Part shown: positions 7,777 through 18,391 of the stretch, one piece after another
How positions within the stretch are numbered: position 1 is the first letter of the stretch
How the letters are laid out: every line of letters begins with the position of its first letter
Assembly: GCF_017982655.1 (NCBI RefSeq)
Contig: NZ_JABXYX010000029.1
Coordinates: 1-64,000, forward strand
From: Brasilonema sp. CT11
GTDB lineage: Bacteria > Cyanobacteriota > Cyanobacteriia > Cyanobacteriales > Nostocaceae
Length of the DNA stretch: 64,000 nucleotides
Direction of reading: 5' to 3'
Notes under the pieces: generated by a model
What the model saw: only the letters and a program-made list of their open reading frames with translations
The model's database searches: none
Told to the model about the DNA's origin: nothing
Program-made: the position numbers and the translations under genes

Positions 7777-8613
7777 GTGATTTATTTTTTAGTCGTTAAT
7801 TATTATTCTACTAATCTCATTATAAAACTGATTAGTTCTCTCCCGAGTTATGACAGTCATGATTATAAAGTGGTCATCGTTAATAACTCTCCTGATGACA
7901 ACTGTATATATAATCTAAAAAATGAATCGGTACTCATTTTTAATGCTGAGAGTAATCTTGGCTTCGGTGGTGGTTGCAACTTCGGGCTGAAATGGATTTA
8001 TACCCAAAATTCCCAAGGAATTGTCTGGATAATTAATCCAGATGCTTATTTTGTAGAAAATTTTATAGATAAAGTTCCGTTATTCTTTGAAAGTCATCCC
8101 AATATTTCTCTGCTTGGGACAATTGTTCATACTACGACAGGTGAACTTTGGTTTGCAGGTGGTCGCTTTATTCTCTCAACAGGAGCAATTATCACTCAAG
8201 ATTTGTTGACGAATACAGATACAGATTATGTTGTTTGTGATTGGATTACAGGTTGTAGCTTGATAGTTAATCTTCGGAATTTTGATGATTGTCCTCAGTT
8301 TGATCCAGCTTATTTTCTCTACTATGAAGATTTTGACTTTTGCCGACGTTATGCCAATCAAGGACATTTGATTGGAGTGACTAAGCAGTTTGGTGTCATA
8401 CATCAGCCATCTTCGATTACAAATCAATATATTTTTCGGAAAATTAAAAATAGTACTTATGGTTATTTGTTATCTTTAGATAGATATACCCATAAATGGA
8501 TTGTCAAGATTAGGTTGCTTCGCTTGATTTCTCATGCTCTAGTTTTGATGTTTGTCAAACCTCAAGTAGCATTGGGGAAATTTGCTGGAGTGTTGATGTA
8601 TTGGAGGCGTTAA
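7777..8613 (+). CDS. Glycosyltransferase family 2 (rhamnosyltransferase-like)
   Basis: The 278-residue protein starts at GTG 7777. It shows the GT2 nucleotide-sugar fold: VVNYYSTNLI and VVIVNNSPDD at the start, then NLGFGGGCNFGLKW, INPDAYF as the DXD-equivalent, and WITGCSLIVN followed by YEDFDFCRRY, the acceptor/base region of the Rhamnosyl-type subgroup. It should transfer a sugar from an NDP-sugar in exopolysaccharide or O-antigen-like synthesis. Together with the Uma2 and GT4 genes downstream it forms a short same-strand group, separated by a 111-base repeat-like gap. Confidence 0.85.
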   Translation: MIYFLVVNYYSTNLIIKLISSLPSYDSHDYKVVIVNNSPDDNCIYNLKNESVLIFNAESNLGFGGGCNFGLKWIYTQNSQGIVWIINPDAYFVENFIDKVPLFFESHPNISLLGTIVHTTTGELWFAGGRFILSTGAIITQDLLTNTDTDYVVCDWITGCSLIVNLRNFDDCPQFDPAYFLYYEDFDFCRRYANQGHLIGVTKQFGVIHQPSSITNQYIFRKIKNSTYGYLLSLDRYTHKWIVKIRLLRLISHALVLMFVKPQVALGKFAGVLMYWRR

Positions 8614-8724: not shown

Positions 8725-9315
8725 ATGGTTGTACAGATTACACCCCGTCTTTACTCGATAGAGGAGTATTTTGCACTTGAAGAAAACACCAATTACCGCA
8801 CCGAATACCGTGATGGAGAAATTGTTCCCATGACAGGTGGTTCGATTAACCATAATCAAATCGTTGTTAACTTAATAGTAACTCTTGCCCTTAGCCTGAC
8901 ACTCAAAGAGCAAAATTACCACATTTATGCTAATGATCTAGGCTTGTGGATTCCTCGTTATCGCCAATATGTTTATCCAGATGTCTTAATTATCAAAGGT
9001 GAACCTATTTTTGAGGAAGGACGTACTGACACTATACTTAATCCCTGCATTATCTTTGAAGTTTTCTCTAAATCTAGCAGTAGCCGGGATCGGGGTGATA
9101 AATTCACATACTATCGTTCTATTCCTCAATTTCAAGAATACATTCTTATTAATCAATATCAAGCTCATCTTGAGCAGTTTAGTAAAACCCCAGAAAATAA
9201 CTGGCTATTTAGTGAGTCTGATGCTGAGGATGGAGTTTTGACTTTAACTTCGGCTAATTGTCAAATCTCACACCGTCAGATTTATGAGCGGGTTAATTTT
9301 AATATAAATGACTAA
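8725..9315 (+). CDS. Uma2 family endonuclease-fold protein
   Basis: The 196-residue protein carries YSIEEYFALEENTNYRTEYRDGEIVPMTGG at the N-terminus. DVLIIKGEP and IIFEVFSKSSSSRDRGDKF follow, the PD-(D/E)XK-like core of Uma2 proteins (DUF820). These are very abundant in cyanobacteria and their targets are unknown. The 3' end overlaps the next gene by 8 bases, implying co-translation. Confidence 0.88.
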   Translation: MVVQITPRLYSIEEYFALEENTNYRTEYRDGEIVPMTGGSINHNQIVVNLIVTLALSLTLKEQNYHIYANDLGLWIPRYRQYVYPDVLIIKGEPIFEEGRTDTILNPCIIFEVFSKSSSSRDRGDKFTYYRSIPQFQEYILINQYQAHLEQFSKTPENNWLFSESDAEDGVLTLTSANCQISHRQIYERVNFNIND

Positions 9316-10402
9316 TATATTATTTAACCTATCTATTGTTTTTTCTCAACCTACAGGTATCAGTAACTATGCAAAAAATCTTTTTCCTTTTTTAAAAACT
9401 CTTAACCCCACCCTCTTAACTGCTCAAAATTACCCGGAATTTAAGTGTTATTCTATACCAGATAATCTAACTCCTGCTCAAGGAACAAAAGGACATTTTG
9501 ATCGCCTTGTGTGGACACAATTTAAACTGCCAAAAATCTATAAAAAGCTGAAATCCCAACTTATATTTTCTCCACTTCCAGAAGCGCCCCTTTATGCTAA
9601 CTGTCGTTTTATCGTGATGGTTCACGATTTGATCCCGTTGCGCTTTCCCAAACTTTTGTCACCACTAACACAATACTCGCGGTACTACATTCCTCAAGTT
9701 CTCGCCCAAGCGCAACATATTATCTGCAACTCTCACGCTACAGCAAAAGATATCATCGACTTCTATCAAATTAGCCCAAGCAAAATCACTGCTATTCCTC
9801 TTGCGCACGACGCCAATCATTTTTGTCCAACTCATTTAGATCATTGCGGACTAAATAGCCAACTTACAAAACCCTATTTTCTTTACATTGGGCGACACGA
9901 TCCCTATAAGAACCTGCACAAACTCATTACCGCCTTTGCAGCATTATCTCACAATCAAGACTATGAATTGTGGTTAGCAGGACCACAAGATAAACGCTTT
10001 ACTCCTTTGTTGCAAACGCAAGTTCAGGAATTGAAGATCACCGATAAAGTAAAATTCCTCAACTATGTTCCCTACAGTGAATTACCCAAAATTATTAGTG
10101 GTGCGATCGCCCTCGTCTTTCCCAGTCTTTGGGAGGGTTTTGGTTTCCCAGTTCTCGAAGCAATGGCTTGCGGTACTCCCGTGATCACCTCCAATCTCTC
10201 ATCTTTACCAGAAGTGGCTGGTGACGCTGGTCTTCTAATTAATCCTTATAATGTTGAGGAAATGACTCAAGCTATGGAAGCAATTGCAACTAATTCCGTA
10301 TTGCGTCAACATCTTTCAACTCAAAGCATCAACAGGGCTAGTCAATTCAGTTGGGAAAAAACAGGACTTGCTACTGTCGAAGTTTTATCACGCTACCTTT
10401 AA
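9308..10402 (+). CDS. Glycosyltransferase family 4
   Basis: The 364-residue GT-B enzyme carries an N-terminal acceptor domain ([27 protein letters not shown]). Its C-terminal donor domain has [38 protein letters not shown] (family E-x7-E motif region) and [18 protein letters not shown]. These match mannosyltransferase-like GT4 enzymes of polysaccharide synthesis. It starts inside the Uma2 gene (8-base overlap). The donor sugar cannot be read from sequence. Confidence 0.88.
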
Positions 10403-10897: not shown

Positions 10898-12325
10898 ATG
10901 AAGCAATTTAAGACTCATAGAAAACGCGGAATTTTGCTGACTCCTGCTGGACTGAATCGGCTACAAGAAGCCATTATGGCTGTAGAAAGGGTGGAGAATC
11001 ACGGCGATCACCTAACTTTAGACCAACTGAGCGATCGCATGAATGTTTCTACCAAAACACTGAGCCGATTGTGGTCATTGGATACAGGTGTAGATCAAAA
11101 AACTCTGAAACTATGCTTTAGCGCTTTTAACCTAAAATTACATAGCGAAGATTATACAATCTTGAATGAACAGGACAATACTGAAACTTCGGAAGCCCTC
11201 TGGCTGAGCTTAGATACAAAAAAAGTAAGTTCGTCTGAGTCTTTAGGTGTAAACTCATTTGTTGACCAACAGTATGACCAACTTGAAAATGTTTGGTCAT
11301 ACCCGGATGGACCGGTATCTCTGGATTCTCCTTTGTATATCGAACGTCCCCCAATAGAGGAACTAGTTTATCAGGAAATCACTCAACCGGGCTGCGTGAT
11401 TCGGATTCGCGCCGCCAGACAGATGGGTAAAAGTTCTCTCGTACTGCGGTTATTAGCCTTTGCACATAAGCGTGGGTATCGCACAGTGAATCTGAATTGC
11501 AACCAGATTGATTCCGACTGTCTGACTGATTTAAATAAGCTGTTACGTTGTATTTGCTGGCGAGTTGCAACACAATTAGACATAGATCCTCAACTGAATG
11601 ACAGATGGGATGAGGAAATTGGTTGTAAGTTGAATAGCAGCTTTTACTTCCAGAATTATTTGCTCAACCACAGTCAAAGTCCAGTGGTTTTGGTATTTAA
11701 CGAAGTTGATCGCTTTTTTGAACATCCTCAGATTTGTGACGAGTTTTTTGCCTTGTTGCGTTCGTGGTGCGAGGAAGCACGACAAAATCCCAATTGGCAA
11801 AAGTTGAGGTTAGTAGTAGTTTACTCTACACAAGAGTATGTCACCCTGGATATCAACCGCTCTCCATTTAATATTGGACTACCTATTCGTCTTGTGGAAT
11901 TTACTCAGCCGCAGGTAAAAGACTTAGCTAAGCGATATGGGCTAGACTGGAGTACTGGTAAAGAATCTGGCTCACTAATATCACTTGTGGGAGGTCATCC
12001 GGCACTGATTCAGCTTGCTCTTTATTATATTCGTTGTCAGGAAATGACTTTAGAAGAACTGATAGAGGAAGCTCTAGCCAACGGTGGCATTTACCGTTAT
12101 CATTTATGGCGACACTGGATGAAACTACAAGAAGATCCTGAGTTGGCTAAGACTTATGCTGAACTAGTAACGGCAAAGCAAGCTATTTATCTTAATCCTA
12201 TTGAAGCTTATAAACTTGAAAGTTTGGGATTAATTCGCTTTGAGGGCGATCGCATTCTCCCGCGTTGCGAACTCTACCGCGCTTACTTTGAAAAACAATT
12301 AGCGACAGCGACAACTCGAATTTAA
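10898..12325 (+). CDS. AAA-like domain NTPase with N-terminal helical/HTH region
   Basis: The 475-residue protein has a basic N-terminus with a helix-turn-helix-like segment (LTLDQLSDRMNVSTKTLSRL, about 42-61). An AAA-like NTPase follows: Walker A RQMGKSS (about 172-178), Walker B VVLVFNEVDRFF, and VVYSTQEYVTLDINRSPFNIG as sensor region. The winged C-terminal part is typical of the cyanobacterial AAA_35-type proteins. Such proteins often act in signalling or conflict systems with WD40 or effector domains; here none is fused. It is related in the NTPase core to the larger protein 736 bases downstream. Function is unknown. Confidence 0.8.
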   Translation: MKQFKTHRKRGILLTPAGLNRLQEAIMAVERVENHGDHLTLDQLSDRMNVSTKTLSRLWSLDTGVDQKTLKLCFSAFNLKLHSEDYTILNEQDNTETSEALWLSLDTKKVSSSESLGVNSFVDQQYDQLENVWSYPDGPVSLDSPLYIERPPIEELVYQEITQPGCVIRIRAARQMGKSSLVLRLLAFAHKRGYRTVNLNCNQIDSDCLTDLNKLLRCICWRVATQLDIDPQLNDRWDEEIGCKLNSSFYFQNYLLNHSQSPVVLVFNEVDRFFEHPQICDEFFALLRSWCEEARQNPNWQKLRLVVVYSTQEYVTLDINRSPFNIGLPIRLVEFTQPQVKDLAKRYGLDWSTGKESGSLISLVGGHPALIQLALYYIRCQEMTLEELIEEALANGGIYRYHLWRHWMKLQEDPELAKTYAELVTAKQAIYLNPIEAYKLESLGLIRFEGDRILPRCELYRAYFEKQLATATTRI

Positions 12326-12379
12326 CCAATTAACAGTAATCAATTATTAGTTATCAGGGAGCATCCTAATGGATGATTA

Positions 12380-12662
12380 CTATTCCTTGGTGATCCACAT
12401 GGCTTCAAACGTCGTTAAAGATCCTAACATTGAGCCACCAATCCAAGCAAAATCCTTCCTCTGGGGACGGGCGACGACTTTAACTGTGATTCCTGACGGT
12501 GCAAGCGAGCGTACTGTCTTCTCAAGTCGCTCAGGCAACCCTTCAAACATACTTAGGACAACCTATAAGAGTAGGAAAGACCACACTAGGTGCATTCTCT
12601 CCAGCAAATCCTACTTTGATTAAACCTCCGATTATGTCTATAACTATGGCTTTTCTCTTCAG
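12380..12662 (-). pseudogene. Actin-like gene remnant, internally deleted and frameshifted
   Basis: On the minus strand 12659-12546 encodes KAIVIDIIGGLIKVGFAGEN followed by APSVVFPTLIGCPKYV and a stop. This reads like the actin N-terminus (VIDNGSG.KAGFAGDDAP..VFPS.VGRP). From 12547 to 12380 a second frame reads FEGLPERLEKTVRSLAPSGI, then VKVVARPQRKDFAWIGGSML and GSLTTFEAMWITKE, then TAG. This matches the actin C-terminus (PG...R...E...LAPS...K..APPERK..VWIGGSILASLSTF..MWI). Roughly 260-270 central residues are missing, the parts are out of frame and the first phosphate loop is altered, so it cannot make actin. The similarity is from memory of actin sequences. Confidence 0.75.
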
Positions 12663-12870
12663 ATTTTCATCTCCTTTGCTATTAGTTGTCTGAGTTGTCT
12701 TTGATTGCTTCAGTTCACAAGAGCTAAACGAACGATCGCTTTCACTAACCTCAATCAGTGTTTTTGTACTCGGCAAAGTTTCTGTGGTGAAACATTAGTT
12801 TGACACTGTGAGTAGAAGTTGCCTTAACTCCGTATATACAGACTCTCGCTTTTATAGTGGAAACACAAGG

Positions 12871-12951
12871 ACAGATAAGACAGTTAAGCAGATAATTAAA
12901 AAGATTTTAAGAACCTACAATTAAACAGTTAAGACAGTTAAGACAGTTAAG
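12871..12951. repeat. 9-bp tandem repeats (ACAGTTAAG)
   Basis: Three perfect head-to-tail copies of ACAGTTAAG lie at 12925-12951. Two more copies lie at 12871-12888 (the first ACAGATAAG). They are upstream of the WD40/AAA gene and resemble short tandem repeats common in heterocystous cyanobacteria. The remaining 12663-13061 contains no recognisable gene. Confidence 0.75.
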
Positions 12952-13061
12952 CTACAAACAGCTAAATGATGTAGTTATAAAAGTAATAAATTCTTAAGTC
13001 AGATGTATCTACAAATTTCTAATACTTGTGTTAAATTACGATTTTGTAATCACACTTTGAG

Positions 13062-16000
13062 ATGAGATACCAAGTTGGTGGCAGTCTCCGCAGTGACGAT
13101 CCTAACTACGTTATCCGTCAAGCAGACGAAAAACTTTATGCCAGTCTGAAAACTGGTGATTTTTGTTATGTCTTAAATTCTCGCCAGATGGGCAAGTCAT
13201 CCTTATTACAACGCACAAGTTATCGTCTTAGAGAAGAAGGGCATAGCTGTGCTTACTTGGATGTCACCCAATTGGGTAGCGAAAATATCACGCCTGAACA
13301 ATGGTACAAAGGTATCATCCTTAGCTTGTTTTACGACTTAAATCTGGTAGAACACGTCAAGTTTAAGCAATGGTGGGATATGCAAGCAGGTATTTCTCCA
13401 GTGCAAAAACTAGACCAGTTTGTTGAAGAAGTTTTACTGCCAAATGTTCAAAGCGAACGGATTTTCATCTTCATTGATGAAATTGACAGTCTCTTGAGTT
13501 TGAGTTTTCCTGTCAGTGACTTTTTTGCCTGGATTCGTCATTGCTATAATCAGCAGGCACATAACCCGAAATTCCAACGCTTGGCATTTGCACTGTTTGG
13601 AGTAGCTAGTCCATCTGACTTAATTGCTGACAAACGCCGCACACCGTTTAACATTGGGACAGCGATTGAGTTGTATGGGTTTCAACGGCATGAAGCAACA
13701 CCATTGCTAAAAGGGTTAGAGGAAGTCGTCAGCCAAAGCGAAGCCGTGCTGCGGGAAATAATTTACTGGAGTGGGGGACAGCCATTTCTGACCCAAAAAC
13801 TCTGTCAGTTGATTGTCCGAATAGCCTTAGAGACACCAAATAGAACTATTGATTTACCGCCAAAAACCGCAGCATATTGGGTAGAAGAATTAGTGCGATC
13901 GCACATAATCCAACACTGGGAAGCAAAAGATGAACCGGAACACTTGCGCACGATTCGCGATCGCCTCCTTTTCAACGAACAGCGTGCAGGACGGTTGTTA
14001 GGTCTTTATCAGCAAGTGTTGCAAGCAGAAGAGAATCAAACATCTGGCGTACCTACCGATGACAATCGAGAACAGACAGAACTTTTATTATCCGGATTAG
14101 TTGAGAAACACAACGGCTATCTCAAAATTAAAAATCCTATCTACCGTAGTGTCTTCAATTCTGAATGGGTACTCAGGCAGTTAGACAATCTGCGTCCTTA
14201 CTCTCAAACATTTAATGCATGGGTAGCATCTGGTTATCAAGATGAATCACGTCTGCTGCGGGGGCGAGCATTACAAGAGGTGTTAAACTGGACTCAGCGC
14301 AAAAGCCTCAGCGATTTGGACTATCGATTTTTAACCGCCAGCCAGGAACTGGAACGTTGGGAAACTGAGCAAAGACTGAAAGCTGAACGGTTGAGACAAA
14401 CAGAAGCACGATTAGCGAGTGAGCGAAAAAGTGCCCGTCGTCAGAGACGATTATTGGCAGTAGTGAGTCTGGCTCTGATAGTTTCTACGGTGTTAGGAGT
14501 AATGACGCTTGTTGCCTACCGTGAATCTGCTTTGAGTGAAGTTCGGGTAACTGCTGTTGCCTCCAACGCAAACTTTGCCTCGAACCAGCATCTTGATGCG
14601 TTGGTGCAAGCGATTCAAGCACGCACAAAATTTCAACGGCTGTGGCTACTCGATGCATCAACGAAATCGGTGTTAGATCAGCAAACGCACAAGGTGCTAG
14701 AACAAGCAATCTATGGTGCAGATGAAGTGAATAGTATATTAGCGCACCAGGGAGGAGCCTTAGCCGTTGACCTGAGCAAGGATGGAAAGTGGATTGCTAG
14801 CGGTGGTACAGACCGAACCGTTCGGCTTTGGAAACGTGATGGAACTCTGGTTCACACCTTACCCCACAATGCTACCCTACATGGTGTTGAATTCAGCCCG
14901 GATAGCCAACGGGTTGCTGCGGCTGGGCTAGATGGCGTGGTGCGAGTTTGGTTAGTGGATGGTACCTCATTGGCAACAATGAAAGGACACACGGCAGCCG
15001 TTTGGCAAGTATCATTTAGCCCCGATGGACAGATAATTGCATCTGCCAGTGCGGATCAAACAATCAAACTCTGGAAGTTAGATGGCACGCTGATCAAAAC
15101 GCTAAAGGGACATAAAGCAGCGGCTTGGAGATTAGCGTTTAGTCCCGATGGAGAGATTATGGCATCTTGTAGTGTGGATGGTACCATTAAGTTCTGGAGC
15201 CGAGAGGGTAACCTTATCCGAACCATACCAGTAAGCAAGGCACCAGTTTGGGGGATAGCCTTCAGCCCCGATGGGCAAACCCTGGTCTCTGGCAGCGCAG
15301 ACAAGCTTGTCAGGCTGTGGAGCCGGGAAGGAAAGTTACTCAAAACTTTTGTGGGGCACACAGCAGAGGTTTATAAAGTGGTGTTTAGCCTCGATGGGCA
15401 AACCATTGCCTCAGCAGGTGCTGATAAAACCGTGAAACTTTGGTGGCCAGACGGCACTCTGCGAAGAACCTTACTCGGGCATCGCTCGCCGATTCGCCCA
15501 ATTGCACTCAGTTCAGATGGTCAGATGATTGTCTCTGCCAGCGATGACGGTACAGTCAAGCTCTGGAAAAACTCGCCTTTTTTACATCCTCTGTACGGTC
15601 ATCAAGATGTGGTTTGGCGAGTTGTCTATGCTCCAGGCACCCGGTCCAATGAGTCTCTCCTTGCTACTGTTGCGGGGCAAGAAATTAAGTTATGGCGAGC
15701 AGATGGCTCTTTAGTTAAGACCGTTGTGCTAAATACGAGTCAGTTTTATAATGCTGCCTTTAGTCCAGATCGGCAGACTCTTGCATTAGCAAGTGCCAGT
15801 AACGAGATACAACTGCTCAACCTTACGAATAACAAAACTGTGATTCTGCGGGGTCACAATGCTGCAATCTTTGGACTAGCGTACAGCCCTAATGGGCAAT
15901 TTCTAGTGTCGGGAGGTGACGACTTTACGATCAAACTCTGGCAAAGTAACGCTTCTGGAAAGTTTCAACTGAGTCAAACAATCCAAGCACATTCTGCGCG

Positions 16001-16601
16001 CATTTGGGATCTCGCTTTTAGTCCTGATGGTCAGTTAATTGTCTCCGCCAGTGCTGACGGTACAATCAAGCTATGGACTTGGAAAGATATTAACCACCAA
16101 GCCCTCCAGCTTGACAAAATCCTGAAAAAACACAAGAGTGCCATTTGGGGGGTTGCTATCAGCCCCGATAGCCAATACATCCTCTCTGCCGGACGCGATG
16201 GTCAACTGGTGCTGTGGAATCGCAACGGTAAACTCGTTCAAGCTTTTGAAGGGGCAAGCATTGGCTTAACGCGAGTTGCCTTCAGTCCGGATGGGCAGAC
16301 AATTGCCGCAGGCACTTTGGACAACACGATCAAGATTTGGACACTAAAGGGCACTTTGCTTGCAACCCTCAGTGGGCACAACGGAGGTGTGGTATCTGTT
16401 GTTTTCAGTCCGGATGGCAAAACCTTGGCATCTGGCAGCTATGACCAGACGGCAATTGTGTGGGATTTACAACAGATTCTCCATATCGATTTACTGAAAT
16501 ACGGCTGTGAGTGGGTGCGGGATTATTTGAAAACTAACACAGCAGTGGAGGAGGCCGTTAGCAAAGCTGCGATCCAGAAGGATCGCTTTCTGTGCAAATG
16601 A
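13062..16601 (+). CDS. AAA-like NTPase fused to WD40 repeats, membrane-spanning
   Basis: The 1179-residue protein begins with an AAA-like domain (about 1-330): Walker A NSRQMGKSSLLQ (about 40-51), Walker B IFIFIDEIDSLL, sensor FALFGVASPSDLIAD. A basic coiled coil (about 425-467, RLKAERLRQTEARLASERKS region) precedes one membrane helix (about 468-488, LLAVVSLALIVSTVLGVMTL). The rest (about 575-1145) is about fourteen WD40 blades with repeated FSPDGQ and KLW/RLW motifs, enough for two propellers. Cyanobacteria carry many such proteins; the architecture suggests an NTP-driven scaffold that reports protein binding across or at the membrane. The start ATG lies before YQVGGSL, the usual beginning of the family. 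Confidence 0.88.
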   Translation: MRYQVGGSLRSDDPNYVIRQADEKLYASLKTGDFCYVLNSRQMGKSSLLQRTSYRLREEGHSCAYLDVTQLGSENITPEQWYKGIILSLFYDLNLVEHVKFKQWWDMQAGISPVQKLDQFVEEVLLPNVQSERIFIFIDEIDSLLSLSFPVSDFFAWIRHCYNQQAHNPKFQRLAFALFGVASPSDLIADKRRTPFNIGTAIELYGFQRHEATPLLKGLEEVVSQSEAVLREIIYWSGGQPFLTQKLCQLIVRIALETPNRTIDLPPKTAAYWVEELVRSHIIQHWEAKDEPEHLRTIRDRLLFNEQRAGRLLGLYQQVLQAEENQTSGVPTDDNREQTELLLSGLVEKHNGYLKIKNPIYRSVFNSEWVLRQLDNLRPYSQTFNAWVASGYQDESRLLRGRALQEVLNWTQRKSLSDLDYRFLTASQELERWETEQRLKAERLRQTEARLASERKSARRQRRLLAVVSLALIVSTVLGVMTLVAYRESALSEVRVTAVASNANFASNQHLDALVQAIQARTKFQRLWLLDASTKSVLDQQTHKVLEQAIYGADEVNSILAHQGGALAVDLSKDGKWIASGGTDRTVRLWKRDGTLVHTLPHNATLHGVEFSPDSQRVAAAGLDGVVRVWLVDGTSLATMKGHTAAVWQVSFSPDGQIIASASADQTIKLWKLDGTLIKTLKGHKAAAWRLAFSPDGEIMASCSVDGTIKFWSREGNLIRTIPVSKAPVWGIAFSPDGQTLVSGSADKLVRLWSREGKLLKTFVGHTAEVYKVVFSLDGQTIASAGADKTVKLWWPDGTLRRTLLGHRSPIRPIALSSDGQMIVSASDDGTVKLWKNSPFLHPLYGHQDVVWRVVYAPGTRSNESLLATVAGQEIKLWRADGSLVKTVVLNTSQFYNAAFSPDRQTLALASASNEIQLLNLTNNKTVILRGHNAAIFGLAYSPNGQFLVSGGDDFTIKLWQSNASGKFQLSQTIQAHSARIWDLAFSPDGQLIVSASADGTIKLWTWKDINHQALQLDKILKKHKSAIWGVAISPDSQYILSAGRDGQLVLWNRNGKLVQAFEGASIGLTRVAFSPDGQTIAAGTLDNTIKIWTLKGTLLATLSGHNGGVVSVVFSPDGKTLASGSYDQTAIVWDLQQILHIDLLKYGCEWVRDYLKTNTAVEEAVSKAAIQKDRFLCK

Positions 16602-16624: not shown

Positions 16625-18391
16625 TTATTGCCCCATTGCACCCGAGTAAACCAAACCGCGTTGCATATCCATTGTTAAAATTGTACCATCCCGAATCACT
16701 TGAGTTGCCTTTTTCACACCAACAATCACTGGCACACCAAGACGTAAACCAATGACTGCTGCGTGGCTTGTAAGACTTTCTTCTTCAGTAATGATACCGC
16801 CAGCTTTGCGAATTGCCTCAACAAAATCAGCACTCGTACCTGAAGCAACCAAAATATCTCCATAATTAAAGTTACTAGCATCAATGCCAGTATGGACGAC
16901 CCGGGCGCGACCACTGACAGAACCTTGTCCCAGTCCAATCCCCTGACCGAGTACCGCCGTCACAACTTCAACCTTAATCAAATCTGTAGATCCAGAAATC
17001 CCTTGGAGAGTCCCAGCTGTCATCACGACCAAATTACCCTGAGATAAGAGTTCTCTTTCTTGAGCCACGTTAATAGCTGCTTGGAATGTCTGACCAGTGG
17101 AAGGGAGTTCTAACATCAACAACGGCTTGACTCCCCACACAAGTTGCAACTGTCGGGCGACATTCACATGAGGTGTTACTGCTAGGATTGGTGTTTTAGG
17201 ACGAAACTTGGAGACATTGCGTGCTGTTGCTCCTGATTGCGTCAGAGTCATAATTGCTGCGGCTCCTAGCTGTTCTGCAATTTGACCGACAGCTTGACTG
17301 ATGGCGTTAGGGATGGAATGTTTGGTGTCTTTCACCTGACTAGCGTTTGTGTTCAGCCACACCTCTTGTTCCATCCGTTCGGCAATTCGTGCCATCGTTG
17401 CTACAGCTTCCACTGGGAAATTACCGACGGCGGTTTCGTTCGAGAGCATCACTGCATCTGTACCGTCTAAAATCGCATTTGCCACATCGGACACTTCCGC
17501 ACGAGTTGGACGGGGGTTGTTAACCATGCTGTCTAACATCTGGGTGGCGGTGATGATGGGAATTCCCAAGCGATTAGCGGTTGCAATCAGCCGCTTTTGT
17601 AGTATTGGAACATCCTCTGCTGGTAATTCTACGCCCAAGTCACCTCTTGCCACCATAACGCCATCGCACAAACTCAGAACAGCTTCCATTTGTTCTATAG
17701 CTTCGTGCTTCTCAATTTTGGCAATGACTGGTACTTGTTTACCCGTACTGGAAATGAGTTCTTTAATTTCTATCATGTCTAGGGGATTGCGGACAAAGGA
17801 AAGTGCGATCCAGTCCACACCCTGATCCAAACCGAACATGAGATCTTCTCGGTCTTTTTCGGTCATTGCTTTGACAGATAGGTAAACTCCGGGAAAGTTC
17901 ACCCCTTTATTATTTGAAAGTACCCCTCCTACAGTCACGCGACAGTGCAAATCTCCTTTTTCGCGGTTAATCTCCTCTACTAACATCTCTACACGCCCAT
18001 CATCAAGGAGAATTCTTGCTCCTGCGGGGACTTCGTCTGCTAAATAATCGTACGTGACGCAGCTAATATCTTGTGTACCAACAACCGGACGATTGGTTAA
18101 GGTGAAGCGATCGCCCTTCACCACGACTATAGATCCGTTTTCAAACTTTCCCAGGCGAATTTTTGGTCCTTGCAAGTCTTGAAGGATAGCTACCGGTTGA
18201 TTCAGTTCAAAGGCGGTTTGCCGAATCAGGCGAATATTACGCTGATGGTCAGCATGACTACCGTGAGAGAAGTTTAGCCGCAACGTTGTCGCACCAGCTT
18301 CAATAATAGCTTTGAGCATTTCTGGGCTGCTGGTGGCGGGTCCAATCGTAGCAACAATTTTTGTTCGGCGTACAGAATCTTTTAATTGCAT
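16625..18391 (-). CDS. pyk: Pyruvate kinase with C-terminal PEP-utiliser domain
   Basis: The 588-residue enzyme converts PEP and ADP to pyruvate and ATP. The N-terminus has RRTKIVATIGPATSSPEML. ALSFVRNPLDM, IAKIEKHEAIEQM and GVMVARGDLGVELP are substrate/metal motifs, and MLDSMVNNPRPTRAEVSDVANAI is the active-site helix. After the usual about 475 residues comes a mobile PEP-utiliser-like domain with GDILVASGTSADFVEAI and the TSHAAV histidine motif, normal for cyanobacterial and Bacillus-type pyruvate kinases. It is convergent with the WD40 gene. Confidence 0.96.
   Translation of the reverse strand: MQLKDSVRRTKIVATIGPATSSPEMLKAIIEAGATTLRLNFSHGSHADHQRNIRLIRQTAFELNQPVAILQDLQGPKIRLGKFENGSIVVVKGDRFTLTNRPVVGTQDISCVTYDYLADEVPAGARILLDDGRVEMLVEEINREKGDLHCRVTVGGVLSNNKGVNFPGVYLSVKAMTEKDREDLMFGLDQGVDWIALSFVRNPLDMIEIKELISSTGKQVPVIAKIEKHEAIEQMEAVLSLCDGVMVARGDLGVELPAEDVPILQKRLIATANRLGIPIITATQMLDSMVNNPRPTRAEVSDVANAILDGTDAVMLSNETAVGNFPVEAVATMARIAERMEQEVWLNTNASQVKDTKHSIPNAISQAVGQIAEQLGAAAIMTLTQSGATARNVSKFRPKTPILAVTPHVNVARQLQLVWGVKPLLMLELPSTGQTFQAAINVAQERELLSQGNLVVMTAGTLQGISGSTDLIKVEVVTAVLGQGIGLGQGSVSGRARVVHTGIDASNFNYGDILVASGTSADFVEAIRKAGGIITEEESLTSHAAVIGLRLGVPVIVGVKKATQVIRDGTILTMDMQRGLVYSGAMGQ

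Follow-up and report, generated by a model that had tools for sequence, protein, structure and literature searches.

Remnant of a eukaryote-type actin gene in the cyanobacterium Brasilonema sp. CT11

Two short minus-strand pieces that read as actin lie at 12380-12662 of the window, by which we mean the whole 64,000-nucleotide stretch of Brasilonema sp. CT11 DNA that was analysed (contig NZ_JABXYX010000029.1). They raise the question of whether a cyanobacterial chromosome can hold the remains of a true actin gene and, if so, how the gene came there and what became of it. A preliminary description of the sequence had proposed that these are the two ends of an actin whose middle is missing, left by a further transfer from eukaryotes or by a wider past distribution. 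Our analysis indicates that 12380-12776 is very probably a pseudogene of a eukaryote-type actin that was acquired horizontally by the ancestor of the Brasilonema-like genus.

Pfam finds Actin alone in each piece, at the start of the profile in one and near its end in the other, and in different frames (table 1). Residues 41-75 of the N-terminal piece correspond to positions 4-38 of the PF00022 profile; its actin homology spans ∼12552-12656 and is followed by a premature stop at the deletion junction. The C-terminal piece corresponds to positions 337-395 of 410. Searches of PDB chains with phmmer returned actins for both pieces, with a best E of 2.1e-17 for the C-terminal piece (the best 60 of 156 matches all being named actin) and of 3.5e-6 for the N-terminal piece (the best 60 of 135 being actins and Arp1). 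The assignment of the pieces to actin is thereby confirmed, as is their position between two AAA-like NTPase genes. The reading of them as the very termini holds for the profile start and the region near its end, but the C-terminal piece stops at 395 and the tail is absent. A six-frame search of the whole genome, reading through stops, gave matches of 55.5 and 31.4 bits, both at the remnant, the weaker one (12411-12656) passing four stops. An intact actin elsewhere in the same genome (8.79 Mb, 96% complete), which the preliminary description had proposed to look for, did not appear in this PF00022 search, the remnant's two matches being the only ones.

Table 1. Features at the actin remnant in the window, with the paired actin site in the Planktothrix genus
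Feature	Coordinates	Strand	Remarks
AAA_35 NTPase gene, flank	10898..12325	+	PF14516 479.5 bits
Antisense open frame across remnant	12369..12623	+	84 codons; open in G003 too; candidate coding frame
C-terminal actin remnant, open frame	12380..12550	-	56 codons; PF00022 57.1 bits, E 1.6e-15
Deletion junction	12543..12552	-	Net 560 bases fewer than B. bromeliae, frame change; same in G003
N-terminal actin remnant, open frame	12543..12776	-	77 codons; PF00022 26.4 bits, just under the curated Pfam Actin cut-off of 27 bits, E 3.3e-6
AAA_35 + WD40-repeat gene, other flank	13062..16601	+	PF14516 100.4 bits and WD40
Planktothrix-genus actin pair at one site	L040:9430-12261 and L078:8733-13210	Opposite strands	One with profilin, one alone

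Actin matches occur in four of the seven genomes of the genus, the window's own included, and DNA comparison using 11600-13800 of the window placed copies at the same locus in three of the six others. The preliminary description had proposed to look for such a gene in sister strains, and Brasilonema bromeliae SPC951 (G002) carries here an open actin gene of 289 codons (PF00022, 256.3 bits). To one side of it is sequence from the beginning of the AAA-WD40 gene, here divided into two frames, and to the other a 3'-end fragment, which is all that is left of the AAA_35 gene. Additional DNA flanks the actin gene on both sides, one stretch with a Uma2 gene and the other with HNH and IS605-type genes. 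Beyond the flanks the genes follow the order of the window, resembling 16625-18391 on one side and 9308-10402, 8725-9315, and 7777-8613 on the other. Genome G003, assembled in 3 contigs, keeps both pieces with the window's junction, and G001 retains ∼35 C-terminal codons, the start codon and the greater part of the gene being gone. The gene is broken, then, in three of the four genus genomes that have actin. Near-identical frames of the AAA_35 flank are present in G003 and G001, and an orthologous start of the AAA-WD40 flank in G001, B. bromeliae, and G003. The remaining three genomes (G004-G006) had no actin match, and in the DNA comparison they matched the flanks only at ∼65% identity or as short repeats.

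The B. bromeliae gene allows the break to be described. Window positions 12555-12683 align with residues 2-44 of its protein at 79% identity and 12383-12574 with residues 225-288 at 81%, with one stop inside the latter, upstream of the C-terminal frame. Shared marks lie 118 bases apart in the window and in G003 but 678 apart in B. bromeliae. The 560 bases by which they differ do not make a whole number of codons, which puts the pieces out of frame, in agreement with the missing middle and the different frames originally described. Relative to its open orthologue, therefore, the window copy is disrupted by a net 560-base out-of-frame deletion. Microhomology at the deletion amounts to ∼three bases, judged by eye, and is uninformative. 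In the AAA_35 gene, G001 is nearest to the window (dS 0.103 vs. 0.127 for G003), which fits a single break common to all three, with G001 losing more of the gene afterwards. The matches in G001, B. bromeliae, and G003 all end at profile position 396; since all copies end at ∼395-396 of 410, the loss of the C-terminal tail is older than the break.

What kind of protein the parent gene encoded can be judged from the B. bromeliae copy. Aligned with full-length actins, it is a mini-actin from which 68 of 89 subdomain-4 positions and the whole C-terminal tail are absent. By working lists of the residues that contact nucleotide (11 + 9) and profilin (21), the B. bromeliae protein retains 3 of the 11 and 3 of the 9 at the nucleotide site, 14 of the 20 being changed or absent, and 5 of the 21 profilin contacts. 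Its AlphaFold model has a pLDDT of 87.8, with values below 50 confined to residues 1-9 and the neighbourhood of the excision point; Foldseek superimposes it on actin with a TM of 0.90. The protein accordingly shares its fold and signature stretches with eukaryotic cytoplasmic actin, but it has neither the four complete subdomains nor most of the ATP-binding residues of a eukaryote-type actin, most of subdomain 4 and the tail being gone and the nucleotide site mostly changed. As the sole readable copy in the genus lacks subdomain 4, the decayed gene may itself have been a mini-actin; in the window the deletion spans that region, so that subdomain 4 of the common ancestor is not readable there. 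Searches for a carrier gave no match, either among phages and plasmids (with the B. bromeliae protein) or among viral contigs (with alignment A1).

We propose that a eukaryote-type actin gene entered an ancestor of the genus by horizontal transfer. It survives in B. bromeliae as the frame without subdomain 4 and tail, the window species and G003 sharing the net 560-base deletion and G001, presumably descended from the same broken gene, having lost more. With the greater part of its nucleotide contacts and almost the whole of subdomain 4 missing, the parent protein had probably ceased to work as a polymerising ATPase. It may have kept the two large subdomains, acting at most as a binding platform, and would have been deleted once it was no longer useful.

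Actin being normally a eukaryotic protein, eukaryotic DNA joined into a cyanobacterial contig by contamination or misassembly might be thought to explain the locus. Four genomes of the genus carry actin at the same place, however, one of them assembled in 3 contigs, and the window and G003 share one deletion yet differ by point changes; with such shared synteny we reject this explanation as scarcely credible. It is just as implausible that the pieces derive from an actin-like gene native to bacteria, such as MreB or ParM/FcmB, whose likeness to actin is a coincidence. MreB genes do give weak PF00022 matches in eight genomes of the family, but the pieces and the B. bromeliae protein match Pfam Actin and have no match to MreB_Mbl at E 0.001, the phmmer matches listed are actins and Arp1, and the pieces are ∼80% identical to a eukaryote-type orthologue, which by itself rejects an MreB-type relic. 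The preliminary description was right, then, to see true actin rather than an MreB or ParM relative.

A less easily dismissed alternative, although we consider it improbable, is that the remnant is alive and makes a small protein, either from the 56-codon C-terminal frame or from the antisense frame. Both of these, and the 77-codon N-terminal frame as well, are open in the window and in G003, and the C-terminal frame has its own ATG, which overlaps the stop of the N-terminal frame, the two sharing 8 bases. Between the window and G003 the C-terminal piece shows 10 synonymous and 6 non-synonymous changes (dN/dS 0.16, against 0.40-0.47 for the neighbouring AAA_35 gene), an excess of synonymous change with P about 0.001-0.004 against neutrality in a test chosen after the counts had been seen. 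Such an excess would be odd for a dead gene, since both genomes carry the deletion. The C-terminal piece also differs more (16/165) than the N-terminal piece (5/111) and the flanks (22/387 and 3/54). Gene conversion or chance could account for this, as could constraint, either residual on the 56-codon frame or acting on the antisense frame; most differences fall at third positions in both the antisense and the actin frame, which leaves these two indistinguishable. Against a living remnant, the N-terminal piece has 1 synonymous and 4 non-synonymous changes, which is neutral-like, most of the fold is gone, G001 has dispensed with the start codon and most of the rest, and the differences are few. 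We therefore retain the pseudogene as the preferred reading.

The preliminary description had guessed at a wider distribution, and eukaryote-type actins or their remnants are indeed present in 17 cyanobacterial genomes of the order, phylum, and family samples combined, the gene being a remnant in three of them (the window's, G001, and G003). The order sample contributes 14 of 388 genomes, the window's own included. Actin was found in 3 of the 386 genomes of the phylum sample, none additional to the earlier samples, and in four further family samples (3/61, 4/13, 3/10, and 2/50), all already in the order sample. Within the window's own family 12 of 217 genomes match PF00022; four of these matches are actin, all in the genus, and the other eight were rejected as actin, Pfam ranking MreB first (243-262 bits vs. 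25-37 for Actin). We infer that the cyanobacterial genomes include Planktothrix sp. PCC 11201 (G439), Microcystis aeruginosa LEGE 91341 (G323), Microcoleus sp. LEGE 07076 (G477), Spirulina sp. CCY15215 (G267), UBA2566 (G290), and filamentous cyanobacterium ESFC-1 (G333). In G347, which is also among the 17, a frame covers the N-terminal part of actin only (L084:7957-9447) and is overlapped on the opposite strand by a frame that looks transposase-like by eye; here too, perhaps, an actin gene has been broken in a cyanobacterium.

A scan of genome contigs yielded 26 loci, comprising 7 cyanobacterial, 6 Asgard, and 13 binned as other bacteria, among them Finniella, Akkermansia, Pedosphaera, Thiosymbion, Alteromonadaceae, Thiodictyon, Myxococcales, Leptospiraceae, and an alphaproteobacterium. 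For each binned contig the label names a putative organism, the assignment being firmer for the long 2.0-Mb Thiosymbion scaffold. At these nine loci 0.83-0.97 of the bases lie in frames of at least 70 codons, a value that has no eukaryotic control and is a weak sign of bacterial contigs, high-GC DNA giving long chance frames. The Pedosphaera-binned contig carries the bacterial gene xseA (474 bits, cut-off 180). Eukaryotic actin PDB 4efh shares 58-59% identity with the actins of the Akkermansia and Pedosphaera contigs. Three tandem actin genes occupy a contig binned as Candidatus Finniella inopinata (L039:7395-11146); each begins with what by eye is a signal-peptide-like stretch, and these actins may be exported. 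The Candidatus Thiosymbion scaffold has a eukaryote-type actin (L048:9995-11083) that groups with cyanobacterial actin G322 at 93/95, and a Leptospiraceae-binned mini-actin without subdomain 4 (L053:9767-10834) has extra residues, signal-like by eye, before the actin part. No common partner gene emerged, in that besides the actins no cluster recurred in more than 6 of the 24 loci compared.

For the trees we set aside four partial rows (L044, L061, L062, and L063), as well as the remnants in the window, G001, and G003, which are too short. In the all-row tree, whose bootstrap had not settled, the 6 Asgard rows separate at 100/100 from the other 28, which comprise bacterial bins and three eukaryotic chains. 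The tree called for by the preliminary description thus places the B. bromeliae orthologue on the side of eukaryotic actins and not of Asgard ones, as does the reduced tree below. In the all-row tree Brasilonema lies among four other long rows (81/82). A reduced tree that also omits the four long rows G317, G333, G339, and Leptospiraceae joins it to the actins of G396 (of the Planktothrix genus) and of the Akkermansia and Pedosphaera metagenome-assembled genomes at 93/83. A core-column tree, made without subdomains 2 and 4 and leaving out G347, puts it in an 11-row set (96/92) including the Microcystis and Planktothrix actins, with no firm sister. The Brasilonema end branch is long (0.7-1.1) and its placement unsure. 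In the reduced tree a single clade for 11 cyanobacterial actins was rejected at a cost of 174 log units (p-AU 6e-38), and a single origin of the seven mini-actins was rejected in the core-column tree (p-AU 3e-10), on which the presence or absence of subdomain 4 requires at least 4 changes. With three eukaryotic rows, long branches, and an unsettled bootstrap, donors cannot be named.

The suggestion of a further transfer is therefore upheld as regards horizontal origin, but the last step need not have been direct from a eukaryote, the trees other than the reduced one being less decisive. Had the Brasilonema ancestor taken the gene straight from a eukaryote, in an event of its own, simple fast evolution after capture would leave eukaryotic actins as the nearest rows by branch path, and the three eukaryotic rows are indeed the nearest (1.3-1.34). 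Set against this are the highest identity, which is to the Akkermansia-binned actin (48%), the 93/83 grouping with bacterial actins, and the 96/92 support for the wider bacterial set; we regard direct capture as rather unlikely, in a weighing that is limited both ways by long branches and by the three eukaryotic rows. Less surely than the transfer itself, the gene may instead have arrived via another bacterium, because one tree joins it to the Akkermansia- and Pedosphaera-binned actins and a Planktothrix-genus mini-actin.

Actin seems not always to have travelled without its partners. Profilin occurs in 2 of the 17 cyanobacterial genomes with actin, adjacent to it both times (Microcystis LEGE 91341 and Planktothrix PCC 11201), whereas PF00235 was found in none of the four Brasilonema-genus genomes with actin. 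Among nine other bins one, Thiodictyon, has profilin above the cut-off, and a Myxococcales match falls under it. The Thiodictyon profilin (G819:C41:22399-22773, L107) scores 164 bits, and the actin of that bin is on the short contig L047. Cofilin (PF00241), in a search that covered these loci, matches near the actins of the Akkermansia contig and Spirulina CCY15215 at 78 and 85 bits (cut-off 22.4). On the Akkermansia-binned contig (L041:4873-6867) cofilin and EF-1-alpha-like genes stand just downstream of actin, the latter with an eEF1A C-terminal domain (60.6 bits) and 222 bits to the NCBI EF-1-alpha model against its cut-off of 540. In Spirulina sp. CCY15215 the cofilin gene (L050:2344-2769) is ∼2.4 kb upstream of actin. 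Whole eukaryotic modules, rather than actin alone, seem to have moved.

The mini-actin of Planktothrix PCC 11201 has 257 residues and is missing 33 of 37 subdomain-2 and 82 of 89 subdomain-4 positions. By the same working lists it keeps 18 of 21 profilin-face residues as against 6 of 20 at the nucleotide site, and its model (pLDDT 90.9) superimposes on actin chains with a TM of 0.93-0.94, which hints at a trimmed actin kept as a binding partner instead of a filament. Against this reading, the full-length Pedosphaera-binned actin also keeps 18 of 21 and no profilin was found in its bin. The G396 mini-actin keeps 15 such residues without profilin, the same number as the Microcystis actin, which has profilin beside it; in the mini-actins of ESFC-1, G339, G317, and Leptospiraceae the number is 9-11. 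G396 belongs to the same genus as PCC 11201 and has a different mini-actin, with no profilin, on the opposite strand of the same chromosomal site, which is surrounded by antitoxin and restriction genes; actin of any kind occurs in 2 of the 10 genomes listed for that genus.

A bolder reading, which we hold to be less likely than not, is that bacteria repeatedly took up eukaryotic actin, with profilin or cofilin at some loci, and independently cut away subdomain 4, and in some cases subdomain 2, so that a polymerising ATPase was reduced to a compact, partner-binding core that has the barbed-end face but forms no filaments. The Planktothrix mini-actin beside profilin would then represent a working form and the Brasilonema gene a record of decay.

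Among known systems the nearest is ActM, a eukaryote-type actin that a 2012 report describes as occurring solely in one Microcystis strain, M. aeruginosa PCC 7806, where it forms polymers and has the profilin partner PfnM (PMC3254629). The LEGE 91341 actin with its adjacent profilin is a probable relative. The Brasilonema gene resembles ActM in being a eukaryote-type actin in a cyanobacterium and differs in being a mini-actin without subdomain 4 in a genus with no profilin in its four actin-bearing genomes; it stands apart from the Microcystis row in the reduced tree and in the same 11-row set in the core-column tree. BARP of Haliangium and the actin-like protein of Candidatus Uab amorphum are reported to group with eukaryotic and Asgard actins, an Asgard-like source being suggested for the latter (PMC6906331). 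Compared by that description, our bacterial rows differ in splitting from Asgard together with the eukaryotic ones. FcmB is likewise an actin superfamily protein of filamentous cyanobacteria, set apart here by description only, as it is reported to derive from the plasmid-partition protein ParM (PMC12645912). BeeR, an actin homologue of Verrucomicrobiota, is reported to be MamK-like (PMC11929497), unlike the Akkermansia- and Pedosphaera-contig actins with their likeness to 4efh. Among the papers listed, mostly from outside subscription journals, titles and abstract openings mentioned no Brasilonema actin and no bacterial actin without subdomain 4.

The fossil of a eukaryote-type actin is solid; the function of mini-actins is something we can only infer. 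Within one genus an open copy, a broken copy, and a near-total loss can be seen side by side. More widely, eukaryote-type actins turn up again and again in bacteria, in some cases accompanied by proteins that bind them, and subdomain 4 has been lost more than once. This repeated loss of one subdomain, in proteins of 250-300 residues, amounts to a natural experiment in what actin can do without. If bacteria did repeatedly reduce captured actins to a partner-binding core, mini-actin cores could serve as cell scaffolds or as decoys against actin-handling predators and hosts.
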